DNA of 64,000 nucleotides from Streptomyces spinoverrucosus. GTDB taxonomy: Bacteria; Actinomycetota; Actinomycetes; Streptomycetales; Streptomycetaceae. The stretch lies in the NCBI RefSeq assembly GCF_015712165.1, contig NZ_JADPZX010000001.1:3286001-3350000 (forward strand). Direction: 5' to 3'. Of the stretch, positions 12,414 to 41,566 are shown piece after piece. Position 1 is the first letter of the stretch. Each line of letters starts with the position of its first letter. A program made the position numbers and the translations under genes. The notes beneath the pieces are model-generated. The model did no database searches and had not been told where the DNA came from. It worked only from the letters and a program-made list of their open reading frames with translations.

Positions 12414-12459
12414 GCCGATCAGGCCGCACGACCCTAACCGGCGAACCTCGCCGGGCCGC

Positions 12460-12626
12460 GCGGCCTCCGCCGAGTCCGGTGCGCCTTGAGGCAGCCGGAG
12501 CCGGGGACCCAACCGAACTTGGGGTGAATCGGTCCAACTCCCTTCCCGGGAGCGGATCGTAGGGCAAACCTTCCGAACCACCCGCCCGAACCCGACAGCT
12601 AACCCGGTAGGCGGCACATGGAAGGA
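12460..12626 (+). promoter_or_regulatory. ydaO-yuaA (c-di-AMP) riboswitch
   Basis: The conserved blocks of the Streptomyces ydaO family occur in order: CCGCCGAGTCCGG, then CTTGAGGCAGCCGGAGC, GGGGACCC, CTTGGGGTGAATCGG, AGGGCAAACCTTCCG, and GACAGCTAACCCGGTAGGCGG. Outer stem P1 pairs 12467-12471 with 12610-12614. Immediately downstream, AAGGAG (12622-12627) can pair with CTCCTT (12632-12637), hiding the ribosome site of the NlpC/P60 gene. In Streptomyces this class senses cyclic di-AMP and lowers expression of cell-wall hydrolases. Confidence 0.85.
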
Positions 12627-12636
12627 GTCGCCTCCT

Positions 12637-38564: not shown

Positions 38565-40139
38565 TCACTCCCACTCGATCGTCCCCGGCGGCTTCGACGT
38601 CACGTCGAGGACGACCCGGTTGACGTCCCGCACCTCGTTGGTGATCCGGGTGGAGATCCGGGCGAGGACGTCGTACGGCAGTCGCGACCAGTCGGCCGTC
38701 ATGGCGTCCTCGGAGGACACCGGGCGGAGCACGATCGGGTGGCCGTAGGTCCGGCCGTCGCCCTGGACACCGACGGACCGGACGTCCGCGAGCAGCACCA
38801 CCGGGCACTGCCAGATGTCACGGTCGAGGCCGGCCGCCGTCAGCTCCTCGCGGGCGATGGCATCGGCCTCGCGAAGCAGGTCGAGCCGCTCCTTGGTGAC
38901 CTCGCCGACGATACGGATGCCCAGTCCCGGTCCCGGGAACGGCTGGCGCTGGACGATCTCCTCGGGCAGGCCGAGCTCCTGGCCGACCATCCGGACCTCG
39001 TCCTTGAACAGCTTGCGCAGCGGCTCGATCAGCTTGAACTCGAGGTCCTCGGGGAGGCCGCCGACGTTGTGGTGGGACTTGATGTTGGCGGTGCCGGTGC
39101 CGCCGCCGGACTCCACCACGTCCGGGTACAGCGTGCCCTGGACCAGGAACTCCACGGCCGGACCCTCGTCCGCGATGATCTCGGCCTGCGCCTGCTCGAA
39201 GACCCGGATGAACTCGCGGCCGATGATCTTCCGCTTCTCCTCGGGGTCGGAGACCCCGGCCAGCGCCTTGAGGAACCGCTCCTCGGCGTCGACGACCTTC
39301 AGCTGCACGCCGGTGGCGGCCACGAAGTCCTTCTCGACCTGCTCGGTCTCGCCCTTGCGCATCAGGCCGTGGTCGACGTACACGCAGGTCAGCTGGGGGC
39401 CGATGGCCTTCTGGACGAGGGCGGCGGCGACGGCGGAGTCCACGCCGCCGGACAGACCGCAGATCGCGCGCTTGTCGCCGACCTGGGCGCGGATCGCCTC
39501 GACCTGCTCCTCGATGACGTTGCCGGTGGTCCAGGACGGGCTGAGGCCCGCGCCCCGGTACAGGAAGTGCTCCAGCACCTGCTGGCCGTGCGTGGAGTGC
39601 ATGACCTCGGGGTGGTACTGGACGCCGTACAGCTTCTTGTCGTCGTTCTCGAACGCGGCGACCGGGACGACGTCCGTGGAGGCCGTGACGCGGAAGCCCT
39701 CGGGGGCGGCGGAGCACGCGTCGCCGTGCGACATCCACACGGCCTGCTCCTCCGGGGTGCCCTCGAAGAGGGTGGAGGACGACTTGGACACATGCAGGTC
39801 CGTACGGCCGTACTCGCGGGCGCCCGTGTTGTCCACCGTGCCGCCGAGGGCCTGCGCCATCAGCTGGAAGCCGTAGCACATGCCGAAGACGGGGACGCCG
39901 GCCTCGAAGATCTCGCGGTCCAGACGGGGCGCGCCCTCCTCGTACACCGACGAGGGGCCGCCGGACAGGATGATCGCCGCCGGATTCTTGGCGAGCATCT
40001 CCTGGACCGGCATCGTGCTCGGCACGATCTCGCTGTAGACCCGGGCCTCGCGGACGCGTCGGGCGATGAGCTGGGCGTACTGCGCACCGAAGTCGACGAC
40101 CAGGACGGTGTCGGGGGCGGCGGGGGTCGCTGATGACAC
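38565..40139 (-). CDS. guaA: GMP synthase (glutamine-hydrolysing)
   Basis: The protein has 524 residues, full length. The class I glutamine amidotransferase domain has Cys88 (GMCYGFQ) and His176/Glu178 (YHPEV). The ATP pyrophosphatase domain has the PP-loop SGGVDS at 230-235, and the C-terminal dimer domain ends KPPGTIEWE. It converts XMP to GMP with glutamine and ATP. GTG at 40139 follows GGAAGG by 6 bases. It is divergent from the chorismate mutase transcription unit. Confidence 0.97.
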
Positions 40140-40229
40140 GGGTTGCCTTCCGGCGGCTTGATGAGGGGCTGTACCACCAATTCTAACGGGGCTGGCGCGG
40201 GTGACCGCCGTCTCAGGATGCGAACCGGA

Positions 40230-40258
40230 TTGGCCGTCACCGAAAGCCACGGCATACT
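40230..40258 (+). promoter_or_regulatory. Promoter of the chorismate mutase leader
   Basis: TTGGCC (40230-40235) and CATACT (40253-40258) are 17 bases apart. Seven bases past the -10 is the A of the leader ATG at 40265, so the transcript would be leaderless. Confidence 0.5.
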
Positions 40259-40264
40259 GACCAC

Positions 40265-40336
40265 ATGCTCACGCACCCGACCTTCGTCTTTACCTATGGC
40301 AACCGGCCCGCCGGCTGCCATGGTCGTGCTGCTTGA
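40265..40336 (+). CDS. Putative leader peptide with Phe/Tyr codons
   Basis: A 23-codon frame ([20 protein letters not shown], then RAA and TGA) starts exactly where transcription is predicted to start. It has three aromatic codons within five residues (Phe-Val-Phe-Thr-Tyr), two of them the rare TTT and TAT. The downstream gene makes prephenate, the precursor of Phe and Tyr. An attenuator-like hairpin lies 20 bases past the stop. This is an inference; no homologue check was possible. Confidence 0.45.
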
Positions 40337-40355
40337 GCAACTGACAAGCGACTTC

Positions 40356-40392
40356 CCAGGCGCCCCGGGCCGACAAGGTCCGGGGCGTCTGG
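40356..40392 (+). terminator. Attenuator-like hairpin before chorismate mutase
   Basis: CCAGGCGCCCCGG (40356-40368) pairs over all 13 positions (one G-U) with CCGGGGCGTCTGG (40380-40392), with an 11-base loop. It lies between the leader frame and the gene. An upstream hairpin (GGCA/TGCC with CCGG/CCGG, 40298-40319) and an alternative pairing of CGGCCCG (40304-40310) with CGGGCCG (40366-40372) would allow switching. There is no T tract. Confidence 0.5.
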
Positions 40393-40445
40393 CGTTCTCC
40401 GGCTCTTGTCGCTCCGGGGCCGCGTCCGACGAGGAGCCCCCGATC

Positions 40446-40871
40446 ATGACCACCACAGCCGAGAACACGCGGACGGCCGCTCCGGCCGCCATCGCAGCCG
40501 AGCACGCGCAGACCCCGAGCGCAGCCGTGGCCGCCGCCGCGACCACCGCCGCCGCGACCACCGCAACCGCGGCCACCGCCCCCTCCCCCTCCCCCTCCAC
40601 CGACAAGACCGGCGCCCGCACCGACGAGGCCGCCGAGCTGATCGCCGGTGCGCGTGACCGCATCGACGCGCTCGACGACCGGATCATCGGCCTGATCCAG
40701 GAACGGATGGCCGTGTCGGCCGTGATCCAGGAGGCCCGCATCACCTCCGGCGGGCGGCGTGTGAACCTCTCCCGGGAGATGGAGGTGCTCGGCCGCTACC
40801 GGCAGGAGCTCGGCAAGCCGGGCACCGCCCTCGCCATGACGCTTCTCGAACTGTGCAGGGGTCGCATCTGA
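40446..40871 (+). CDS. Chorismate mutase (AroQ type)
   Basis: The protein has 141 residues. The first ~55 are Ala/Thr/Ser/Pro-rich and probably disordered. The all-helical AroQ domain follows: ARDRIDALDDRIIGLIQERMAVSAVIQEARI holds the active-site Arg and other residues, then GRRVNLSREMEVLGRYRQELG. It converts chorismate to prephenate, the branch to Phe and Tyr. ATG at 40446 follows AGGAG by 8 bases. Regulation by a leader peptide is proposed separately. No signal peptide, so it is the cytoplasmic biosynthetic type. Confidence 0.9.
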   Translation: MTTTAENTRTAAPAAIAAEHAQTPSAAVAAAATTAAATTATAATAPSPSPSTDKTGARTDEAAELIAGARDRIDALDDRIIGLIQERMAVSAVIQEARITSGGRRVNLSREMEVLGRYRQELGKPGTALAMTLLELCRGRI

Positions 40872-41566
40872 GTTCGCACCCCCTCTCACCCGTACGGCCC
40901 GTGACCGCCGCCCGCCGCTCTTCGTTGGTCCCGATGTCCGTGCCAGCCAGGGGCGGGCCCGAAAGAACCACGCGTGGCTCGCTGGAGCGATGAGACGTAC
41001 GGATCGTGCCGTGCGTCGTGGGACCTCGCTCCGGGGAAGTGACCGGACGGCAGGGGACAGCAGCCCGGTCACCCAAGAGAACGGTCGGCTCCGGGGACGC
41101 CCGGGGCCGACCGGCGGGAATGTCCAAGGCAGCCCAAGTCCCGCCGCAGACAACCGCATTGTGGTGCGGTACGGCGCAACCCGGTGGCGCGACGACGCAC
41201 CGCCAGAGGCCGAGACCATCCGGAGACAAGCGGCGCAACCCCCCGGCGCCGCTTCCCAGGCACCGGCGCTGCCCTGACGCCGGTGCTGACGAAAGAAGGG
41301 CCCCGCGGCTCCGCCCCGCGGGGCCCTTCTTCATGCCCCGACGTCGACCGGCCGACAGGCCGCTACACCAAACCCCCACCTCTCATCCACTGATTTTCAA
41401 AACCTTCACCAAATGACCACATTCAGCCTCATCATGGCCATTTCAAGCCAAACTTGATCCGCTCAACCGTTGGGCAGTGCTTGATCGATTTAGATCACCT
41501 CGTCCGTCCGCGATCACCGGGGCCTCCGATGAATGCGCAGGTGACGGACAGAGGGGAGCTCGACGA
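40872..41566 (+). other. Gene-less region with several strong hairpins
   Basis: About 700 bases separate chorismate mutase from the metalloprotease gene. Hairpins: GTGACCGG/CCGGTCAC near 41037-41071; a 13-pair stem at 41083-41112; GCACCGGCG/CGCCGGTGC at 41260-41286; and the terminator at 41293-41331. The spacing suggests either a long 3' UTR or a separate structured RNA. From 41340 on the sequence becomes AT-richer and should hold the next promoter. TGATC-GATTTA-GATCA at 41482-41497 is a possible operator. Confidence 0.4.
41293..41331. terminator. Strong bidirectional terminator hairpin
   Basis: AAGAAGGGCCCCGCGG (41293-41308) is followed after 7 bases by its exact reverse complement (41316-41331): a 16-bp perfect stem with an A/T-rich base, the classic shape of a Streptomyces terminator. 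It lies 420 bases after chorismate mutase. Confidence 0.85.

Follow-up and report, generated by a model that had tools for sequence, protein, structure and literature searches.

In Escherichia coli, the chorismate mutase gene pheA is preceded by a Phe leader peptide (pheL) and controlled by attenuation, as the relevant part of a review outlines (PMC11802643). An actinobacterial case is the aroR leader of Corynebacterium glutamicum, which carries Phe-Tyr-Phe and lies before aroF (Neshat et al. 2014; PMC11802643, PMC4046766, available text); in the account of that review, aroR responds to Phe, not Tyr. Within the genus Streptomyces, eight leaders have been described in S. lividans (PMC8079986), of which seven are leaderless and several lack a typical Rho-independent terminator; these are Leu (two), Trp (two), Ala, Ile, Met and Thr leaders, and the available text describes none as Phe/Tyr. 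The uORFC-13-1 motif before aroF of Acholeplasma is likewise a predicted Phe-containing uORF with a terminator at an aromatic-pathway gene (PMC8632094, available text). As to attenuation in Streptomyces generally, 96 novel premature transcripts were reported for S. clavuligerus in the available part of PMC8269248, and the available part of PMC1262725 presents the ilvB and leuA cases as ambiguous; according to that paper, altering codons of the ilvB leader left regulation in S. coelicolor unaffected, so that a convincing layout is no proof of attenuation in Streptomyces.

Here we analyzed a leader preceding the gene of chorismate mutase, the enzyme that opens the path to Phe and Tyr, in a 64,000-nt stretch of Streptomyces DNA (hereafter, the window). 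Compared with pheA, this leader is probably leaderless and carries Phe and Tyr in T-ending codons, and the protein downstream matches chorismate mutase models only. It also differs from aroR, which controls DAHP synthase instead of chorismate mutase, and from uORFC-13-1, which belongs to another phylum and another gene, both being set apart here by description. Searches of an open paper library, together with the available text of the papers cited here and of PMC13236596, PMC4833913 and PMC2965389, turned up no account of a leader ahead of an actinobacterial chorismate mutase gene. The element may already be present, unnamed, in supplementary data sets; the attenuator class is known, and the Phe/Tyr leader before the Streptomyces chorismate mutase is apparently an undescribed member of it.

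Organization of the leader and the chorismate mutase gene

The following features, all on the plus strand and numbered from the first letter of the window, were assigned (basis in brackets):

40210 to 40226, plus strand: GTCTCA box (GTCTCAGGATGCGAACC), preceding the −35-like hexamer and a candidate site for a regulator (occurrence count)
40230 to 40258, plus strand: promoter-like pair, TTGGCC (40230 to 40235) and CATACT (40253 to 40258) with a 17-nt spacer (sequence; conservation)
40265 to 40336, plus strand: predicted, probably leaderless leader ORF, 23 codons and TGA (ORF position, conservation)
40283 to 40297, plus strand: putative control codons TTC GTC TTT ACC TAT, Phe-Val-Phe-Thr-Tyr (codon conservation)
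40294 to 40323, plus strand: predicted pause hairpin 1:2, H1 (fold, double changes, swap tests)
40305 to 40323, plus strand: strand 2 of the predicted antiterminator 2:3, its partner being 40356 to 40371 (fold, swap tests)
40330 to 40350, plus strand: predicted hairpin P2b, across the leader stop codon UGA at 40334 to 40336 (stem score)
40356 to 40392, plus strand: terminator-like hairpin T, consisting of strand 3 or A (40356 to 40371), the loop (40372 to 40376) and strand 4 or B (40377 to 40392) (fold energy, covariation)
40393 to 40399, plus strand: weak U-containing tail CGUUCUC, 3′ of T (T-run count)
40399 to 40410, plus strand: strand 5 or C, with complementarity to the loop of T and a portion of B (40372 to 40383), giving a candidate locking hairpin B:C
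40431 to 40436, plus strand: Shine-Dalgarno-like GAGGAG of chorismate mutase (sequence)
40446 to 40871, plus strand: chorismate mutase, type II, AroQ class (PF01817; NF005894 and TIGR01808 above cut-off)

The promoter-like pair, the 23-codon frame and the chorismate mutase gene all lie where a first-pass annotation, made from the letters alone, had placed them, and the Phe-Val-Phe-Thr-Tyr that it read in the leader frame was recovered as the five codons listed. The hairpin that it drew with 13 pairs is at the right position, and folding gives it 16 pairs (two of them G-U) around a 5-nt loop. The upstream hairpin and alternative pairing that it proposed also occur in relatives, with weaker support than the terminator hairpin; its 7-bp alternative is most likely CGGCCCG (40304 to 40310) with CGGGCCG (40366 to 40372).

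A scan of 39900 to 40900 for strict sigma-70 and U-rich-terminator consensus sequences called neither, which means that the promoter and the terminator both depart from the canonical sequences. Rfam likewise gave no family at the gathering threshold in the leader region, the best sub-threshold match (E-value 0.0041) lying on the minus strand with 21.7 of the 59 bits needed. Elsewhere in the window, at 12458 to 12628, a c-di-AMP riboswitch (RF00379) was matched with 72.3 bits. As to the protein, the N-terminal 50 to 60 residues of chorismate mutase (window 40446 to 40620) are rich in Ala, Thr and Pro, and most named relatives among the matches listed align to it only from about residue 40 to 60 on, unlike the adjoining leader RNA.

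Conservation and distribution of the leader element

Two sets of sequences were used. Protein searches found 57 loci (L001 to L057), of which L035 was left out as its contig ends inside the element, and the RNA model R1 was built from the remaining 56. A wider set, anchored on the core pattern TTT or TTC and TAT or TAC, was reduced from 159 to 155 sequences by removal of duplicates (L136 among them) and to 146 by removal of nine DAHP-synthase leaders; L162, having neither leader nor chorismate mutase, and L168, a DAHP-synthase leader with its core outside the pattern, were left out, and matches to the hairpin only were not counted as the element. Since the sequences outside L001 to L057 come from RNA-model matches, counts on the 146 lean to conservation, whereas the 56 protein-found sequences are free of that bias. 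Within the 146, the presence of chorismate mutase downstream was not verified one by one for L066 to L106, and for L045 the limits of T were assigned manually, the hairpin finder having chosen its B:C hairpin.

Across the 56 protein-found sequences, the stretch from the −10-like box through the hairpin is almost invariant. Lack of conservation of the frame or hairpin had been named beforehand as what would refute the first reading; in the event the frame, the aromatic codons, the −10 spacing and the hairpin are all conserved in the genus and in most genera of the family, and the hairpin covaries.

R1 matched 81 of the 84 genus genomes with E-values of 3e-20 or better, a count that takes in the own genome and some source genomes of the model, and gave no such match in G257, G318 and G344. 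In the family sample, 37/38 of the genus genomes listed and 16 of the 17 family genera were matched, the latter with E-values of 1.3e-7 or better; the best R1 match in the remaining genus, g14, was 1.4e-6 and not confident in the sampled genomes. Neither R1 nor R2 gave a confident match in G155, G170, G200 and G204. Within the window's genus, the protein had a match in 147 of 150 genomes; of the three genomes left, two (G114 and G139) have the element and one (G103) lacks it. At least 27 named loci occur among the protein matches, all of them Streptomyces among the matches listed, and we infer that this genus (g1) is Streptomyces and the family (f1) Streptomycetaceae.

Of 60 loci fetched from R1 matches (L111 to L170), 52 came from f1 and the related family f3 and eight from f19. 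Chorismate mutase lies downstream in 51 of the 52 f1/f3 loci, L162 being the exception. Over 296 phylum genomes, R2 matched 25 at 1e-5, and the convincing full-length matches were confined to the window's genus (nine) and f39 (one). The own genome holds no second full-length copy; its other matches are partial and mostly cover the GC-rich hairpin.

Leader codons and predicted start site

The leader of the window contains only three aromatic codons, and TTT and TAT stand at the leader core in all 56 protein-found sequences, the window included. In the wider set, TTT occurs together with TAT in 139/146 leaders, and 145 of the 146 have at least two Phe and Tyr codons up to the core Tyr codon; the core reads F-T-Y-G in 126, F-S-Y-G in nine and F-F-Y-G in five. 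Trp precedes the Tyr codon in 6/146 chorismate mutase leaders, and the peptides have 18 to 28 residues (median 23; 146 distinct leaders). That TTT and TAT are rare, as first proposed, is borne out by 27 window ORFs, with TTT as 10 of 305 Phe codons and TAT as 27 of 314 Tyr codons, these ORFs being partly chosen by high GC3, which lowers the counts of T-ending codons; among 29 window ORFs chosen by length alone, where false ORFs are possible, the counts are 26/302 and 28/248, respectively.

In L016 to L018 and L054, a one-base insertion after the FTYG core shifts the frame with the RNA otherwise the same, and in L016 to L018 the shifted ORF runs 8 bases longer, to a TGA. Selection after the core thus seems to act on the RNA and not on the peptide.

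The −10-like box CATACT is present in 53 of the 56 protein-found sequences, and the leader starts with ATG in 52 and GTG in four. The start-codon script favoured a −10-like motif upstream, so its result of 138/146 is partly by construction and the spacing was recounted on the protein-found set, in which the box stands 6 nt (40 sequences, the window among them) or 7 nt (16 sequences) before the start codon. Such a spacing is too short to hold a Shine-Dalgarno site, which implies that the start is leaderless.

Mutually exclusive pairings in the leader RNA

The mutually exclusive pairings 1:2, 2:3 and 3:4 are all predicted by folding and agree with a classical attenuator, with modest support for 2:3 and 1:2 on representatives. 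In the window, T has an energy of −36.8 kcal/mol, and the 2:3 fold, with P2b nested in it, −30.5 kcal/mol. Over 72 diverse sequences, 95.5% of the cells of H1 and T were paired, compared with 88.6% in shuffled alignments (0/500); slid versions paired 33 to 49% of cells, a comparison that favours the tested structure because it was read off one of the sequences. In the same alignment, double changes were found in 11 of 21 pairs, nine of 15 in T and two of six in H1.

Strand 1 of H1 holds most of the Tyr codon, and the swap tests for this hairpin were modest (57/2000 with representatives, 30/500 with all 146). Strand 2, made of the H1 loop and 3′ arm, has the 5′ arm of T as its partner; own pairs of this 2:3 helix were stronger than swapped ones on the 146 sequences, with energies of −25.3 against −23.6 (0/500), and the test was less clear on 23 representatives (47/2000), five of which come from the window's genus group. 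Between H1 and T, the best stem covers the leader stop codon in 139/146 leaders. This stem, P2b, has a mean score of 5.28, compared with 4.29 after shuffling, and its arms vary (TGCTTG/CAAGCG, TGTCTG/CAGACA, GCCTG/CAGGC). Further, a T-run of three or more falls within 12 nt of the T stem in 83/146 leaders, the other 63 having less.

When no ribosome is included, the terminator fold is clearly more stable than the read-through fold, both in the window (−79.2 and −63.6 kcal/mol) and in the mean of the 146 (−78.3 and −60.9 kcal/mol). Read-through must therefore rest on masking by the ribosome and on the order of folding, as it does in other attenuators.

A proposed attenuation mechanism and its alternatives

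Taken from the sequence and its conservation, the leader is probably a ribosome-mediated transcription attenuator, in which the availability of charged tRNA-Phe, and perhaps of charged tRNA-Tyr, would set how strongly chorismate mutase is expressed. The start site, the termination and the amino-acid response are predictions from layout and conservation. Transcription would start at or next to the leader ATG, and the leaderless ORF would be translated. With Phe and Tyr ample, the ribosome would reach the UGA, H1 and T would fold, and RNA polymerase would stop after T. Under a shortage of Phe (or Tyr), a ribosome stalled at UUU or UAU would cover strand 1, so that strand 2 would pair with strand 3 (A), T would be blocked and the chorismate mutase gene would be transcribed. 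The B arm left free could then, in sequences of the window's family, pair with the downstream strand C and lock the read-through form. The ribosome footprint reaches about 15 nt downstream of the P-site. In the window, a stall at UUU is predicted to leave strand 2 free and a stall at UAU to cover its first bases, which makes Tyr sensing doubtful in Streptomyces and Phe the predicted dominant signal, in line with what the review states for C. glutamicum aroR (PMC11802643).

The best-surviving alternative is translational attenuation, in which the leader ribosome would alter folding so as to hide or expose the Shine-Dalgarno sequence of chorismate mutase, T being no terminator. T of the window indeed lacks a strong U-tract after it, GGGGC near 40416 can pair in the fold with GCCCC adjoining the Shine-Dalgarno sequence, and the accessibility of that sequence is 0.286, compared with 0.349 when the upstream sequence is shuffled (n = 140). 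This effect is weak, however, with 85/140 sequences under their own shuffle, and the f3 and f39 relatives, with U-runs after T, have a terminator layout; we therefore hold this alternative improbable, and sequestration of the Shine-Dalgarno sequence was rejected as the main mechanism for the smallness of its effect. The weak tail of T could also be accommodated by Rho-dependent termination gated by leader translation, with Rho entering in the leader or after it and the hairpins merely tuning pausing; for actinobacterial cys operon leaders without obvious terminators, candidate Rho sites have been proposed (PMC1262725, available part). A Rho site alone would not need the conserved, sequence-specific complementarity of T and 2:3, and the leader stretch is very structured, which renders termination by Rho still less probable than translational control. 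That the nascent FxFTYG is an arrest peptide stalling the ribosome by itself, as the nearly fixed F-T-Y-G (126/146) might suggest, is very improbable indeed, given that the synonymous codons are fixed too (56/56), that the peptide after the core is not conserved (the frame-shifted L016 to L018 and L054, with the RNA unchanged) and that other species have FSYG or FFYG.

A candidate fifth strand

Beyond the three pairings of the transcription attenuator proposed above, the 3′ arm of T has a possible partner in strand C. Own B:C pairs were stronger than swapped ones in all 146 sequences (0/500), in the 23 representatives (0/2000), in the 91 genus sequences (0/1000) and in the other 55 (1/1000). 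When 137 distinct f1 sequences were aligned, 75.7% of the B:C cells were paired against 69.8% after shuffling (0/500), with 99 double changes against 52.6 (0/500). As relatedness is not taken into account by shuffling, none of these counts should be read as a probability, and the support is weaker than that for T. In L027, L118, L120 and L131, C is about equalled as a partner by another stretch that lies further downstream, and the f3 and f39 representatives (L156, L157 and L107) show no strong partner for the T loop or 3′ arm. A five-strand, self-locking attenuator, with strand C trapping the 3′ arm of T after antitermination and the stop-codon hairpin timing the release of strand 2, is thus put forward tentatively, as an elaboration about which we have more doubt than confidence.

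Leaders of related families and other aromatic-pathway genes

Relatives in f3 and f39 have the same layout, with longer U-runs after T; in f39 (L107 and L108), T is followed by a run of T, and the ORF after L107 looks chorismate mutase-like by eye. In f19, another family of the class, the leaders (MQRKFWRFYGYRPTG..., MRTAWSFWYGDG...) are rich in Phe, Trp and Tyr and resemble the element in hairpin layout, and the gene after them encodes type I DAHP synthase, as called by eye at ten loci (L109, L110 and L163 to L170) and at L109 also by NCBIfam. The exact pattern FWRFYGY was found in 16 of 296 class genomes, all of f19 and some of them sources of the pattern, and the backwards control gave 0 among the matches listed. 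With Phe/Tyr before chorismate mutase and Phe/Trp/Tyr before the first shikimate step, the codons of each leader match the end products of the enzyme that it precedes, although Trp also occurs in the 6/146 chorismate mutase leaders given above.

Other aromatic-pathway genes were also inspected. For the Streptomyces class II DAHP synthase (L218), a leader was considered and rejected, as the sole aromatic-rich ORF (MSALRYRRLTSWAWAGRPDITP) occurs in the own genome only (0/11 relatives). In the 600 nt scanned upstream of prephenate dehydratase (L219), no ORF of 6 to 40 codons with at least three F, Y or W was found. On the minus strand, in L220 and its relatives, an ORF upstream of DAHP synthase ending in NWWWTASPAAH and a stop resembles, by eye, the S. 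lividans trpE leader (MFAHSTRNWWWTAHPAAH).

The GTCTCA box occurs in the 90 nt before the leader start codon in 79/146 leaders, 71 of them at −55 to −59, compared with 1/146 in a background window. The same hexamer was also seen upstream of DAHP synthase in 12 aligned genus loci. It is possible, judging from these occurrences, that one regulator is common to aromatic-pathway genes via GTCTCA. NdgR was considered as the owner of the box and rejected, the 15-bp motif published for it being different (PMC4340878, available text).

Implications

Should the switch act in the way put forward here, the chorismate branch point of Streptomyces would have a defined cis element for control by the aromatic end products, one that is conserved through most of the family. 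It would also offer a clean case for asking whether leaderless leader ORFs and weak-tailed hairpins attenuate transcription in high-GC bacteria.
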